Below are positions 18,240-26,320 of a stretch of 64,000 nucleotides of DNA, one piece after another (the stretch's first letter is position 1; each line of letters begins with the position of its first letter). The DNA comes from Abditibacteriota bacterium (lineage in GTDB: Bacteria; Armatimonadota; UBA5829), in contig JAFZNQ010000009.1 in assembly GCA_017552965.1 (NCBI GenBank), positions 124,001 through 188,000 on the forward strand. The letters are read 5' to 3'. A model generated the notes under the pieces. It did not search any database. It was not told the origin of the DNA and saw nothing but the letters and a program-made list of their open reading frames with translations. The translations under genes and the position numbers were made by a program.

Positions 18240-18290
18240 AAAGAAGGTATTTTTATTTTTCTAAGTCAAATGTCCCGAAGGTTTTTTTTA

Positions 18291-19106
18291 ATGAACAAGA
18301 TCATCAGCTCGGCCGACGAGAAGCTCACCTACATTTTTGATCTTGACGGAGTGGTTTACAGAGGCGTCACGCCTCAGCCTCACGCCCCGGAAAGCATCAA
18401 CGAGCTGGGCAGGCTGGGACACTCGGTCTGGTATTTCACCAACAACGCGGCCCAGACAAGAACCTCCTATGTGGAAAAGCTGGCAGGCATGGGCATCACC
18501 GCCTCGGAAGACCGGGTCATGACCAGCGCCTACGCCACCGGTCTGTATATGTCCGACAACTATTCTCTGGAGGGCAAATCGGTGCTCTGCGTGGGTCACG
18601 AAGGCATCATAGACGAGATGCGCAGGCTGGGGCTTACATGCGGCACAGGCTCTGAGCTGAAAAAATACGATTTCGTGGTAGCCGGTATCAAAAGAGACAT
18701 CACCTACAATGAGATATGGGCCGCCATGTATGCCATCAGGAACGGAGCGGTGTTTATCGCCACCAACACTGACAAGACCTTCCCCCTGGAAAAAGGCATG
18801 CTGGCTCCCGGCGGCGGCGTCATAGTCAACGCCATATCCACCGCCACCGACGTGGTGCCCTACGTATGCGGCAAGCCCAACACCTTTGCCATAGACAGGA
18901 TCATGGCCATATCGGGCTCGGACAGAGAGCACACGGTCATGGTGGGCGACCGTCTGGACACCGACATAGCGGTAGCCAACAACGCCCGTATCACCTCGGC
19001 TCTGGTCATGGGAGGCGTCACCTCCAAAGAGGCTGCGCTGGCCGCCGAAGGCGTGGAAAAGCCGGATCACATCATAGAAGACCTGCGGGGGCTGCTGCCG
19101 TCATGA
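18291..19106 (+). CDS. HAD-superfamily subfamily IIA phosphatase (NagD/phosphoglycolate-phosphatase-like)
   Basis: The 271-residue product has motif I IFDLDGVVYRG, motif II WYFTNNAAQTRTSYVEKL and motif IV MVGDRLDTDIAVANNA, with a class II cap between them. The combination GKPNTFAIDRI before motif IV is standard for NagD and p-nitrophenyl/phosphoglycolate phosphatases. The natural substrate cannot be told; these enzymes often clear nucleotide or sugar-phosphate side products. The ATG at 18291 has GAAGG upstream; an earlier ATG (18270) has none. Its end overlaps the ThiD-like gene by four bases (ATGA). Confidence 0.9.
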   Translation: MNKIISSADEKLTYIFDLDGVVYRGVTPQPHAPESINELGRLGHSVWYFTNNAAQTRTSYVEKLAGMGITASEDRVMTSAYATGLYMSDNYSLEGKSVLCVGHEGIIDEMRRLGLTCGTGSELKKYDFVVAGIKRDITYNEIWAAMYAIRNGAVFIATNTDKTFPLEKGMLAPGGGVIVNAISTATDVVPYVCGKPNTFAIDRIMAISGSDREHTVMVGDRLDTDIAVANNARITSALVMGGVTSKEAALAAEGVEKPDHIIEDLRGLLPS

Positions 19107-19876
19107 CACCGGTCGCTCTGACTATCGCTTCCGTGGACAGCTCCTCCGGAGCCGGCGTCACCAGAGACCTCTCCGTATTCGGAGATCTGGGCGTTTACGG
19201 CATGAGCTGCACCTGCAACGTCACCAGCCAGAATTCCTGCGGAGTACACAGGATCTTTCGGGTGGCTCCGGCGATCATAGCCGATCAGATAGACTGCGCC
19301 CTGAAGGATGTGACTCCCGGGGCTGTGAAGATAGGCATGTTTTACTCCCTCAGAGCGGGAGCGATCATCGAGCAGAGGATCAAAAAATACGGTCTCCGCA
19401 ACATAGTCCTGGACACTCCCAGGATCAGCAAGAATACTACGCCCATCATCACGGAGAGAGCTTTCAAATTTCTCAGGGCGCGCCTGCTGCCTCTGGCCGA
19501 CGTGATCACCCCCAACGCGGAGGAGACGGAGGCCCTGACCGGCATGCATATCACCGACCTGTCGGGGAGCCGGGAGGCCTGCAGGGTCCTTTGTGACATG
19601 GGAGCAAAGAACGTCATCGTCAAGGGCGGACATCTGGACACGCCCACTGACATCCTCTACGACGGCAGGGACTATTATGAAGTCCCGGGAGAGCCCTGCG
19701 GCAGACGGGTCCACGGCACAGGCTGCACCTTTTCCGCCGCTCTGTGTGCCGGACTGGCCCTGGGCAAAAGCATGCCCGACGCCTTTGCCGACGCCAAAAG
19801 CTACGTCAACGAGCAGATAATCAGGTCCAAACGGTTTGGCAAAACCGATATATATTATTTCGTACAGGGAGAATAG
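19103..19876 (+). CDS. thiD: ThiD-like kinase (hydroxymethylpyrimidine/pyridoxal kinase family)
   Basis: Ribokinase-fold enzyme; family members phosphorylate hydroxymethylpyrimidine phosphate in thiamine synthesis, or pyridoxal. The 257-residue product shows DLGVYGMSCTCNVTSQNSCGV, ITPNAEETEALTGM and VKGGH. The catalytic-loop motif VHGTGCTFSAALCAGLALGK is also present. The N-terminal substrate loop reads IASVDSSSGAGV rather than the usual AGSDSSGGAGI, so the exact substrate is uncertain. The start shares ATGA with the HAD stop, and pyrG begins two bases after its stop. No other thiamine gene is nearby. Confidence 0.82.
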   Translation: MTPVALTIASVDSSSGAGVTRDLSVFGDLGVYGMSCTCNVTSQNSCGVHRIFRVAPAIIADQIDCALKDVTPGAVKIGMFYSLRAGAIIEQRIKKYGLRNIVLDTPRISKNTTPIITERAFKFLRARLLPLADVITPNAEETEALTGMHITDLSGSREACRVLCDMGAKNVIVKGGHLDTPTDILYDGRDYYEVPGEPCGRRVHGTGCTFSAALCAGLALGKSMPDAFADAKSYVNEQIIRSKRFGKTDIYYFVQGE

Positions 19877-19877
19877 T

Positions 19878-21491
19878 ATGAACACAAAATACATTTTTGT
19901 TACCGGCGGCGTCGTTTCGTCAGTAGGTAAAGGTATTTGCACAGCGACCATGGGACGGCTGTTCAAAAGCCGCGGTCTGAAGGTATCGGTTCAGAAATTT
20001 GATCCGTATATCAACATAGACGCCGGCATGCTGACTCCCATACAACACGGCGAGATATTCATCACCGAGGACGGCGCCCAGGGCGATCTGGACCTGGGGC
20101 ACTACGAAAGATTCGTGGACATCAACACCACCCTCCTTTCGGACATCACCACCGGCATCATATATGACAACGTGATCAAAAAAGAGAGACAGGGCGCCTA
20201 CAAGGGCGGCACCGTGCAGGTCATCCCCCACATCACCAACGAGATCATAGAGACCCTGGTCAAGAACTCCGAGGAACAGGCGGCCGATATATCCATAGTG
20301 GAAATAGGCGGCACCGTAGGCGACATGGAAGGCCTGCCCTACCTGGAGGCCATCCGCCAGTTCAAAAAGAGGATCGGCTTTGACAACGTCATCAACGTGC
20401 ACCTGACCCTCATTCCTTCCGTAGGCACCTGGAACGAGCTCAAGACCAAGCCCACTCAGCACTCCGTGATCAAGCTCAGAGAGCTGGGCATACAGCCCGA
20501 CATTCTGGTATGCCGCACCAAATCCCCCATATCCTCCGACATGAAGGACAAGATATCCCTGTTCTGCGACGTGCCCAAGGAAGCCGTCATAGAATCCTGC
20601 GACGTTGACACCATCTACGAGATCCCTCTCATCTATGAAAAGGCAGGCGTGGCCGACTACATTTGTAAGAGATTCGGCATAGAAAAGAGACCTGCGGATC
20701 TCAAAAAATGGACCACCATGATCGACGCCATCAAGCATCCCAAAGAAAAATGCAACATAGCCATAGTAGGCAAATACGTGGAGAACGGCGACGCCTATCT
20801 GTCACTGGCCGAAGCCTGCAAGCACGGCGCAGTGGAATTGGGCAACGGCGTCAATATCCTGTGGGTGGACACGGCAGACTTTGCTTCCCATACCCCCGCA
20901 GAGCTCCTGAAGGATGCGGACGCCATCATAGTAGCCCCGGGCTTCGGAGAAAGAGGAGCCGAGGCCAAGATACAGGCGGTCCGTTACGCCAGGGAAAACA
21001 ACATACCCTTCCTGGGCATAGCCTACGGCATGCAGCTTGCCGCGGTGGAGACAGCCCGGAACCTGTGCGGGCTGGACAAGGCCAACTCCATCGAGGTGGA
21101 CAGCAAGACTCCTCATCCCATCGTGTGCGCCAGACCCTCTGTGTCCAAGTATGACAACTATGGCCCCTGCATGAGGCTGGGCTCCTTCCCCTGCAGACTG
21201 GAGGAGGGCTCTGTCATCAAGTCCATATACGGCAGCGAACTCATATATGAAAGACACAGGCACAGATACGATCTCAACAACAAATACAAGGCCGCTCTGG
21301 CCGAAGCAGGCATGCTGTGCACCGGCTTTTCGCCCGACAACACCATTGTCGAGGTCATCGAGCGCAGGGATCACCCCTTCTTTGTGGGCGTCAGCTACAA
21401 TCCCGAATACAAGAGCAGACCCGACGTGCCCCATCCCCTGTTTTTGGCATTCATCAAAAAGGCCTTTGAATACAAGCACGGCAAACAATAA
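19878..21491 (+). CDS. pyrG: CTP synthase with a degenerate glutaminase domain
   Basis: Converts UTP to CTP. The 537-residue product has an intact synthetase half (1-265): GGVVSSVGKGI, FDPYINIDAGMLTPIQHGEIF, DLDLGHYERF, YKGGTVQVIPHITNEI. The class I amidotransferase half (295-537) is present at full length, but its catalytic residues are replaced. The nucleophile Cys of GICLGMQ is A382 (GIAYGMQ, bases 21021-21023). The His of HPEF is N508 (YNPEY, 21399-21401). The PGGFG oxyanion loop reads APGFG (353-357). ERHRHRYDLNN and the core fold are kept. Glutamine hydrolysis should be lost; ammonia-dependent synthesis, known from nucleophile mutants of other CTP synthases, should remain. GGGAG precedes the ATG. 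Confidence 0.95.
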   Translation: MNTKYIFVTGGVVSSVGKGICTATMGRLFKSRGLKVSVQKFDPYINIDAGMLTPIQHGEIFITEDGAQGDLDLGHYERFVDINTTLLSDITTGIIYDNVIKKERQGAYKGGTVQVIPHITNEIIETLVKNSEEQAADISIVEIGGTVGDMEGLPYLEAIRQFKKRIGFDNVINVHLTLIPSVGTWNELKTKPTQHSVIKLRELGIQPDILVCRTKSPISSDMKDKISLFCDVPKEAVIESCDVDTIYEIPLIYEKAGVADYICKRFGIEKRPADLKKWTTMIDAIKHPKEKCNIAIVGKYVENGDAYLSLAEACKHGAVELGNGVNILWVDTADFASHTPAELLKDADAIIVAPGFGERGAEAKIQAVRYARENNIPFLGIAYGMQLAAVETARNLCGLDKANSIEVDSKTPHPIVCARPSVSKYDNYGPCMRLGSFPCRLEEGSVIKSIYGSELIYERHRHRYDLNNKYKAALAEAGMLCTGFSPDNTIVEVIERRDHPFFVGVSYNPEYKSRPDVPHPLFLAFIKKAFEYKHGKQ

Positions 21492-23987: not shown

Positions 23988-24563
23988 CTAACCCAGCTCT
24001 CTGCCCAAAGCAAAAGCCTTCAGGTTGATCTCCACGAACTTCGGCTTGACCAGAGCCTTGATGGCCTCCAGCCAGATCTCCTCCGGGATGTCGGTGTTCA
24101 CCGACAAGGCTCCCAGCATTATCAGGTTCGCCACCTTGACGTTGCCCAGCTCCCCGGCCAGCTTCAGAGCGGGGATGATCTTGACGCGGCCAAAGGCGCT
24201 GTTGATCTTTTCGTCTATGGCCTCGGGCCATTCCTGCTGACCTGTGGACACGGTGATGGGTCTTATTTCCTGATCGTTCACGTAGCAAATGCCGTCCTCG
24301 CTCACCAGATGAGCGTATCTGAGGGCCTCCACCTTTTCAAAGGATATCAGCACGTCCGTGCCGCCGGTGGGCACCAGCGGAGAATACACCTTGTCGGCAA
24401 TACGCACCTGGCTCATGACGGAGCCGCCGCGCTGGGCCATGCCGTGGACCTCGTTTTTCTTGACGTCCATTCCCGCCAGAAGGGCGGTCCTGCACAGTAT
24501 TTCACTGGCCAGCAGCGTTCCCTGGCCGCCGACTCCCACGAGAGATATATTTACGGATTTCAT
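23988..24563 (-). CDS. iorB: Indolepyruvate:ferredoxin oxidoreductase beta subunit
   Basis: Gamma-type 2-oxoacid oxidoreductase subunit, partner of IorA in oxidising aryl pyruvates from aromatic amino acids to aryl-acetyl-CoA. The 191-residue product shows GVGGQGTLLASEIL (10-23) and KKNEVHGMAQRGGSV, standard for the family. The ATG at 24563 has AGGAG upstream and overlaps the iorA stop by four bases (ATGA), ensuring equal synthesis. Confidence 0.93.
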   Translation of the reverse strand: MKSVNISLVGVGGQGTLLASEILCRTALLAGMDVKKNEVHGMAQRGGSVMSQVRIADKVYSPLVPTGGTDVLISFEKVEALRYAHLVSEDGICYVNDQEIRPITVSTGQQEWPEAIDEKINSAFGRVKIIPALKLAGELGNVKVANLIMLGALSVNTDIPEEIWLEAIKALVKPKFVEINLKAFALGRELG

Positions 24564-26320
24564 TTGCTTTTCTCCTGTATAGCGCCGAATTTGCACAGCT
24601 GGCTGCACATGCCGCAGCCCGCGCACAATACGGGATCGATCTTTGCCTGATACCTGTTGCCGGTCTTTTCGCCTCTCAGGATAGCCTGACAGCCCAGCCC
24701 GATGCACATTCCGCAGGCCTTGCACTTGTCGGGATCCACAAAGTAGGTCTTGTTGTGCTTCACTCCCGTGAGCATGCAGGGATATTTGCTGATGATGACC
24801 GACAGTTCCGGCGCCTCGATCTCTTCTTTGATGGCGTCGATGGTCTCTTTGATATTGTAGGGATTGATGGTCCTTACCCGCTTTACTCCGATACCCTTGC
24901 ACAGAGCCTCCAGGTCCACGGCGGAGGTAGGCTCGCCTCTCAGAGTGCTGCCGGTGCCCGGATTGTCCTGATGGCCGGTCATAGCGGTGATCCTGTTGTC
25001 GGAGATGATGATGGTCCCGTGGGACTTGTTGTACACCATATTCACCAGTCCGGTGATGCCGCTGTGGAAAAAGGTGCTGTCGCCTACGATACCCACCACG
25101 GGTCTGGTCTCGCCGCCCTTTTCAAAGCCGTGAGCGTTGGTGATGCCGCCGCCCATGCATATGATGGTGTCCAGAGCGTCAAGAGGCTTCATGAGCCCCA
25201 GAGAATAACAGCCTATATCACCGGTGACTATGCAGCCCAGCTTGTTCAGAGCATAAAACACGGGTCTGTGGCTGCAGCCGGGACACAGCACGGGAGGCCG
25301 TGCCGGCAGGTCCTGAGCCGGAGCCTTTCTCACAGGCGCGGCTGAGCCGGTGATCTCGGCATAGAAATCCGCCACGCGGTCGGGGTTCAATTCGCCTATC
25401 TTGAGCATATCGGAATGAGGAGCCAGACTGATGCCCATGGACAATATCTGCTCTTCCAGATACTTGTCCCCTTCCTCGATCACGTACAGCCTGTCCACCT
25501 TGCCGGCAAAAGCGGCGATCTTTTCCCGGGGGATAGGATTGGTAAAGCCCAGCTTCAGCACGCTGACCTGAGGCATGGCCTCCCTGACGTACTGATAGCT
25601 GACTCCGCTGGTGACGACGCCTATCCGGGTATCCCTGATCTCTTCGAAGTTGAAGGGGCTCTCCTCGGATATGGCCGCCAGCTTCTTCATTTTTTCCTCG
25701 AGCCTTACTCTCATCTGTCTGGCAAAGGCAGGTATGGGGCAGGTGCGGGTCACGTTTTTCTCATATCTGAGGCCGGAGGGCTCTGCTCTCCTGAAATCGC
25801 CCAGGTCCACCACGCCGGAGGAATGGCAGACGCGGGTGGTCATACGAAACAGCACCGGCTGCTTGACCTCTTCGCTGAGGGATACGGCAGCCCTGAACAT
25901 ATCGTAGGCCTCCTGGCTGTCCGAAGGCTCGAACATGGGTATCCTGGCAAAGCGGGCCACGTTGCGATTGTCCTGCTCGTTCTGCGAAGAATGCATCCCG
26001 GGGTCGTCTGCGCTGACCACCACCATGCCTCCGTTGCCGTCCACGTACGAAAAGGTCATCAGAGGATCCATAGCCACGTTGAGGCCCACGTGCTTCATGG
26101 TAGTCATGGAGCGGGCTCCGGCAAAGGATGCGCCGATGGCTACCTCACAGCCCACCTTCTCGTTGACAGACCATTCGGCGTAGATCTCGGGAAACTGCTT
26201 GAGATTCTCCATGATCTCCGTAGAAGGAGTACCGGGATAAGAGCTGGCCACGTTGATACCCGCGGCATACGCCGCGTGAGCCACTGCCTCATTGGCAGAT
26301 AAGACTTTTTTTATTCCCAT
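24560..26320 (-). CDS. iorA: Indolepyruvate:ferredoxin oxidoreductase alpha subunit
   Basis: The 586-residue product has a pyrimidine-binding domain (SSYPGTPSTEIMENL), a TPP-binding domain (VTGDIGCYSLG...DTIICMGGG...GDSTFFHSGITGL) and a C-terminal 2x[4Fe-4S] ferredoxin domain. The cluster ligands are CKACGMCIGLGC and CAGCGMCSQLC. It oxidises indolepyruvate and related aryl pyruvates using TPP and passes electrons to ferredoxin, a trait of anaerobic amino acid fermentation. It has its own promoter at 26367-26395, and AAGGAT precedes the ATG. Confidence 0.95.
   Translation of the reverse strand: MGIKKVLSANEAVAHAAYAAGINVASSYPGTPSTEIMENLKQFPEIYAEWSVNEKVGCEVAIGASFAGARSMTTMKHVGLNVAMDPLMTFSYVDGNGGMVVVSADDPGMHSSQNEQDNRNVARFARIPMFEPSDSQEAYDMFRAAVSLSEEVKQPVLFRMTTRVCHSSGVVDLGDFRRAEPSGLRYEKNVTRTCPIPAFARQMRVRLEEKMKKLAAISEESPFNFEEIRDTRIGVVTSGVSYQYVREAMPQVSVLKLGFTNPIPREKIAAFAGKVDRLYVIEEGDKYLEEQILSMGISLAPHSDMLKIGELNPDRVADFYAEITGSAAPVRKAPAQDLPARPPVLCPGCSHRPVFYALNKLGCIVTGDIGCYSLGLMKPLDALDTIICMGGGITNAHGFEKGGETRPVVGIVGDSTFFHSGITGLVNMVYNKSHGTIIISDNRITAMTGHQDNPGTGSTLRGEPTSAVDLEALCKGIGVKRVRTINPYNIKETIDAIKEEIEAPELSVIISKYPCMLTGVKHNKTYFVDPDKCKACGMCIGLGCQAILRGEKTGNRYQAKIDPVLCAGCGMCSQLCKFGAIQEKSK

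Follow-up and report, generated by a model that had tools for sequence, protein, structure and literature searches.

In textbook accounts, bacteria take the nitrogen of CTP, GMP, and carbamoyl phosphate from glutamine rather than from free ammonia, which is usually scarce inside cells. Vertebrate CPS I has a class I glutaminase (GATase) domain without a complete Cys-His-Glu triad and works from free ammonia only (PMC7657897), and single-domain, ammonia-dependent NAD synthetases show as a precedent that an ATP-dependent amidating enzyme can run on free ammonia in vivo (PMC3376133). Among laboratory mutants of CTP synthase (PyrG), E. coli G352P has no activity with glutamine and nearly full activity with NH4Cl, and E. 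coli L109A, D107A, and R429A, as well as L. lactis T431V, form CTP from NH3 at near wild-type levels while glutamine-dependent activity or its coupling is lost or reduced (PMC9138612). Ammonia-only enzymes with an inactivated GATase, ammonia-using NAD synthetases, and engineered CTP synthases of this kind are therefore already known. Searches of open-licence papers turned up neither a natural CTP synthase lacking the nucleophile nor a single bacterial genus in which three amidotransferases had all changed in this way.

Here, we analyzed a pyrG gene with an inactivated glutaminase domain in a stretch of 64,000 nucleotides (the window) on contig C9 of G000, an armatimonadote MAG (2.78 Mb draft in 138 contigs, 97% complete, 0.9% contaminated), together with its counterparts in other genomes of the genus and family.

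Native pyrG and its glutaminase domain

The reading frame of this gene (Table 1) had no internal stops, and its product was full length and above both NCBIfam cut-offs for PyrG (TIGR00337/NF003792), with 758.7 vs. 308 bits and 715.2 vs. 462.75 bits. The HAD-ThiD-PyrG gene order was common to relatives at the family, order, and class level, and in the tree the window protein grouped with its own family and order (SH-aLRT 98). Given this gene order and tree position, the inactivated gene is the native, vertically inherited copy and an orthologue of CTP synthase. Elsewhere in the window (23988-26320), an IorA/IorB-like pair (indolepyruvate ferredoxin oxidoreductase), named by eye from sequence, points to amino-acid fermentation.

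Table 1. Features of the native pyrG locus, in positions of the window.
Feature	Position	Strand	Basis or remark
HAD-family phosphatase, upstream of native pyrG, conserved neighbor	18270..19106	+	
ThiD-like gene (phosphomethylpyrimidine kinase), ending just before the pyrG start, conserved neighbor	19106..19876	+	
Native pyrG, 537 aa, glutaminase domain inactivated	19878..21491	+	Profile matches; last in HAD-ThiD-PyrG order
Synthetase (amidoligase) domain, about residues 1-270	19878..20687	+	PF06418 (CTP_synth_N), 387 bits; catalytic residues all kept
Lys109 codon (E. coli Leu109, loop L4, coupling of glutamine-derived ammonia); Asn in G001	20202..20204	+	
Class I GATase domain, full length, about residues 290-537	20745..21488	+	PF00117, 102 bits
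APGFG loop, natural variant, also in triad-intact homologues	20934..20948	+	Alignment; PDB 3nva
Nucleophile codon GCC, Ala382 (E. coli Cys379)	21021..21023	+	Alignment
Ser506 codon (E. coli Gln513; Gln in 56/56 intact homologues), common with the G001 copy	21393..21395	+	
Catalytic His codon AAT, Asn508 (E. coli His515)	21399..21401	+	Alignment

Only one residue of the triad, E. coli Glu517, is kept in the window protein (as E510); the nucleophile has become Ala and the catalytic His has become Asn, and the protein lacks the complete Cys-His-Glu triad of a glutamine-hydrolyzing CTP synthase. Cys was present in all of the approximately 110 homologues aligned from outside the genus (same phylum plus 80 named genomes) and in 56 of 56 intact rows of a second alignment, and His515 was present in all 56 intact homologues as well; judged from these alignments, the loss of the triad is far beyond chance. 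The initial annotation had called both substitutions, Cys of GICLGMQ to Ala and His of HPEF to Asn, and both were confirmed. It had also considered sequencing error unlikely, and we could reject sequencing or assembly error as the cause of the Cys loss, given that GCC lies at least two base changes from either Cys codon and that G001, a genome of the same genus, independently carries Ser (AGC) at this position. By contrast, its claim that a change from PGGFG to APGFG abolished the oxyanion loop was wrong. Pro occupies E. coli position 351 in 11 of the 56 triad-intact homologues (VAPGFG, VCPGFG, VGPGFG), the archaeal CTP synthase of PDB 3nva has LPGFG with Cys present, and Gly352, the oxyanion-hole glycine tested by mutation, is kept in the window protein.

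The G001 PyrG, 69% identical to the window protein and found in the same HAD-ThiD-PyrG order, combines Ser at the nucleophile with a change of HRHR to HRNR and keeps His515. No second PyrG was found in G001 (91% complete) with queries of both PyrG types, only the acquired type described below was detected in G002 (same genus, 84% complete), and the other 12 family genomes had one PyrG each, with Cys and His present. In genus g5 (G006 and G010), the single-copy PyrG keeps Cys and His but is unusual at sites of coupling and of the GTP lid (Gly or Asn in place of L109, a change at R356, and GVC or GTY in place of GKY), possibly representing an earlier stage of the same loss. Base composition also varied within the genus of the window, with 35% G+C in contig C65 of G001 vs. 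56% in the window for the stretches compared.

The synthetase half had been described as conserved, and this held at every catalytic, UTP, ATP, and Mg position examined, none of which is changed in either native copy (G000 or G001). Using the catalytic residue set of CTP synthase from PMC8325340, we found K18, K40, D72, E140, G142, G143, D147, E149, K187, Q192, R211, and K223, as well as the H57 gate, unchanged in the window protein. Changes common to both native copies affect the nucleophile, Gln513 (Ser), Leu109 (Lys or Asn), Gln/Arg429 (Val or Ala), and Thr438 (Cys), along with Val60 (Ile), Met52 (Leu), and Thr69 (Gly); D107 is altered in the window protein only, not in G001. Given that published mutants at altered sites show lost or reduced activity or coupling with glutamine and keep activity with NH3, the changes in PyrG are concentrated on glutamine use and coupling. 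Caution regarding free NH3 comes from V60 at the tunnel bottleneck, which is replaced by Ile in the window protein and in the G001 copy alike; in E. coli, the larger substitution V60F leaves an enzyme unable to use free NH3 unless GTP is present (PMC9138612).

M52L, T69G, and I148M, changes of the synthetase half near the UTP site or tunnel, count against ammonia use as the explanation of this gene. Derived substitutions near the UTP site would fit an enzyme neofunctionalized to aminate a substrate other than UTP or to produce a modified nucleotide, yet the UTP, ATP, and Mg ligand residues examined are all unchanged and the gene remains in its ancestral housekeeping locus, and we consider neofunctionalization highly improbable.

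The GATase domain is full length, as had been annotated. Among near-invariant columns (conserved at ≥95%), nine of 103 differ from the window protein in the synthetase half and seven of 58 in the GATase half. Given that the remaining 51 GATase columns are kept, and that the G000 and G001 GATase halves are still 64% identical with an open frame (no stops or frameshifts) despite saturated synonymous sites, this half of the protein is not decaying freely; because of the same saturation between G000 and G001, dN/dS is uninformative for native PyrG. With a pLDDT of 84.8 and weak confidence at residues 13-15 and 47-69, the predicted structure of the window protein agrees from end to end with those solved for CTP synthases (TM about 0.82-0.88), and the GATase fold is therefore expected to be intact.

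The second pyrG and its operon

G000 has two PyrG genes. The second, on contig C64, encodes a protein 48% identical to the window PyrG with an intact triad, and belongs to a glmS-guaA-pyrG-purF operon in which the glutaminase residues are intact. This canonical copy, recovered by searching the genome, refuted the earlier proposal that the organism makes CTP only from ammonia. The same operon was present in G002 on a 47 kb contig (C264), with a pyrG 80% identical. SecA encoded on the G002 operon contig is 90% identical to G000 SecA, vs. 72% for G001 and 63% for other genera; the operon is therefore genuine DNA of the genus, and contamination was rejected as the source of the second pyrG. We also considered whether the operon was inserted right after secA and the tmRNA gene in both genomes, and this position is not shared: colinearity of G000 contig C63 with G002 ends at the tmRNA gene, and no glmS follows there.

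In the tree, the C64-type PyrG was sister to PyrG of Subdoligranulum variabile (70.8% identity; SH-aLRT 100), within Bacillota and other outsiders, and the AU test rejected a single clade of both PyrG types (p = 1.5e-6). The intact copy is best read as horizontally acquired. The pyrG of Subdoligranulum is the nearest named one, and in its surroundings glmS, guaA, and purF were not adjacent to it. A Subdoligranulum-like donor lineage hints at a gut habitat and is the only pointer to it. In both G000 and G002, glmS occurs only within the acquired operon, and no two-SIS-domain GlmS of about 600 aa was found in G001, G005, G009, or G010 (91, 99, 98, and 100% complete, respectively), which suggests another route to glucosamine-6-phosphate in these four genomes.

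With a canonical copy coexisting in G000, native PyrG could be a regulatory or structural paralogue that supplies no CTP and instead modulates canonical PyrG or forms filaments or mixed tetramers with it. CTP synthases are known to form filaments (PMC9138612), and the shared changes M52L, T69G, and I148M, given their proximity to the UTP/CTP site, could alter regulation. However, a purely structural role would not require the synthetase catalytic residues, all of which are kept, and no canonical partner was found for the inactivated type in G001. Co-assembly is doubtful for two copies at this level of identity and phylogenetic distance, and the parallel losses in GuaA and CarA described below would be left unexplained. 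We therefore regard a regulatory or structural role as unlikely.

It is similarly improbable that native PyrG is a redundant copy decaying to a pseudogene since the arrival of the operon. The acquired operon does contain both pyrG and guaA, each with an inactivated native counterpart in G000, and the stem branch of the native PyrG clade is long (0.99). Against decay stand the open reading frame and the retention of most near-invariant GATase columns and all synthase residues, as well as the 69% identity between the G000 and G001 copies, which is near that of SecA between G002 and G001 (72%) and above that of the neighboring HAD (58%) and ThiD (48%) proteins. Decay by redundancy would also not account for G001, inactivated without a detected second copy, or for CarA, inactivated without a replacement.

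GuaA, CarA, and the remaining glutaminases

We collected the class I and class II glutaminases of the genus and compared PyrG, CarA, and GuaA with their E. coli counterparts. Native GuaA of G000 (contig C37) keeps Cys, has RPE in place of HPE, and lacks the MSHG motif, and G002 (contig C61) agrees over the portion of the gene that remains on the contig. The G001 copy (contig C13) has an internal deletion within the GATase domain that removes both the nucleophile and His. A GuaA deletion suspected in G002 from its short frame was rejected, as the contig end cuts the gene there, whereas the deletion in G001 is real.

CarA, present once in each genus genome (G000, G001, and G002), has GFGDGAA or AFGDANV in place of GICLGHQ and YKP or FKP in place of HPE, and the two CarA proteins scanned (G000 and G001) fell below the NCBIfam cut-offs. 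In all three genomes, CarA is encoded directly beside CarB (carA of G000 at C9:282279-283193). The CarB proteins of G000 and G001 are full length and share 78% identity, as against 41% for the CarA proteins. With neither nucleophile nor catalytic His in its CarA, such a carA-carB pair resembles a bacterial version of CPS I. Two carAB pairs occur in G004, which belongs to a different genus of the family: one, within a pyrimidine operon, is intact, and the other has an inactivated CarA. This indicates that the inactivated CarA is older than the genus, which kept only this type.

Between G000 and G002, dN/dS (NG86) of native GuaA rose from 0.12 in the synthetase part to 0.46 in the GATase part; the two halves of CarA had values of 0.14 and 0.24. 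These values indicate selection on synthetase function with relaxation of the glutaminase part. With the same chemistry lost in same-genus PyrG, native GuaA, and CarA, the sequence comparison supports the original idea that PyrG lost glutaminase chemistry and may use ammonia.

Loss of all glutaminases was considered and rejected: PurQ (all five genomes), PabA/TrpG (G000 and G002), HisH (G001), and native PurF (G000 and G002) look intact, and PurF of G001 deviates at several conserved glutaminase sites. Given these intact-looking enzymes, glutamine is still made or imported and used, which counts against a general move to ammonia. In line with a move away from glutamine, the canonical GSI-type glutamine synthetase was detected in G004 and G009 but not in the genus, where G000 and G001 have a GSIII-type protein. 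Beside the GSIII-type glutamine synthetase of G001, a GSI-family protein of 322 aa that is either remnant-like or divergent was observed (C92:46599-46967).

Several intact glutaminases in the genome could in principle feed native PyrG with ammonia in trans, from a separate subunit or from the GATase of another protein, and two-subunit amidotransferases exist in related families. However, no glutaminase gene adjoins native pyrG in the window, the protein's own GATase domain still fills the docking position, and every class I protein returned by a Pfam GATase scan of G000, six in total, could be assigned to a known enzyme. We consider supply in trans very unlikely.

Proposed change of nitrogen donor and comparison with known systems

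The explanation we favor, at a probability of about 0.62, is that native PyrG was converted from a glutamine-dependent to an ammonia-dependent CTP synthase within a lineage-wide move from glutamine to ammonia, and that the operon was acquired later in the G000/G002 branch. The synthetase domain would still phosphorylate UTP and then aminate it, while the GATase domain would no longer hydrolyze glutamine and would be kept as a folded scaffold, tetramer partner, and vestibule leading external NH3 to the tunnel. The change probably began before the split of G000 and G001, given that both copies have Q513S, T438C, M52L, T69G, and other changes, which suggest that glutamine use was already impaired by then. 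Once the lineage depended on free ammonia, selection would no longer have maintained the glutaminase chemistry of PyrG, GuaA, and CarA while still acting on their synthetases. In the G000/G002 branch, acquisition of the Bacillota-type glmS-guaA-pyrG-purF operon would have made glutamine usable again as the donor for CTP and GMP, with the native copies continuing to use ammonia alongside.

We favor loss before acquisition of the operon, given that inactivation also occurs in G001, where no copy of the operon was found at 91% completeness, and in CarA, which has no replacement; the alternative order is loss caused by the operon in G000 and G002. The operon brings glutamine-dependent versions of four enzymes (GlmS, GuaA, PyrG, and PurF), some of whose native genes are inactivated or missing; the match is incomplete, as the native PurF of G000 looks intact. 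The intact glutamine-dependent PyrG of G000 also counts against our explanation, as the native copy is not needed there for CTP from glutamine. Each rival explanation, on the other hand, fails to account for one or more of three findings: the retained synthase site, the inactivation in G001, and the parallel losses in GuaA and CarA. In a more far-reaching form, PyrG, GuaA, and CarA would all be ammonia-only in this lineage; one or more living members, of the G001 type, would depend entirely on free ammonia for CTP, GMP, and carbamoyl phosphate, and the other branch would later have regained glutamine by means of the operon. We advance this form tentatively, at somewhat less than even odds.

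If conversion to ammonia is correct, bacterial dependence on glutamine as a donor can be lost, in a bacterial counterpart of the change from CPS III to CPS I in vertebrates, and the genus would provide natural ammonia-only enzymes for the study of tunnels and GTP control. The acquired operon makes the reverse step, regained use of glutamine, directly testable.

Compared with canonical PyrG (E. coli, Thermus, and M. tuberculosis structures), the window protein has the same two-domain architecture, all synthase residues, and a matching predicted fold, and differs in the absence of the nucleophile and His and in the alteration of L109, Q/R429, and T438, positions of coupling and GTP activation. 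The loss or impairment of glutamine activity with retention of NH3 activity measured in laboratory mutants (G352P, R429A, and L109A) is predicted here from residues; those mutants were engineered, whereas this change is natural, occurs in a genus, and involves losses of the nucleophile and His. Single-domain NAD synthetases have no glutaminase domain, while here the domain is kept but inactivated. In its logic, window PyrG resembles CPS I, as it also has a class I GATase with an incomplete triad. CPS I is a different enzyme with a different substrate and serves ureagenesis in animals, whereas the change proposed here concerns a bacterial CTP synthase, together with GuaA and CarA of the same genus.
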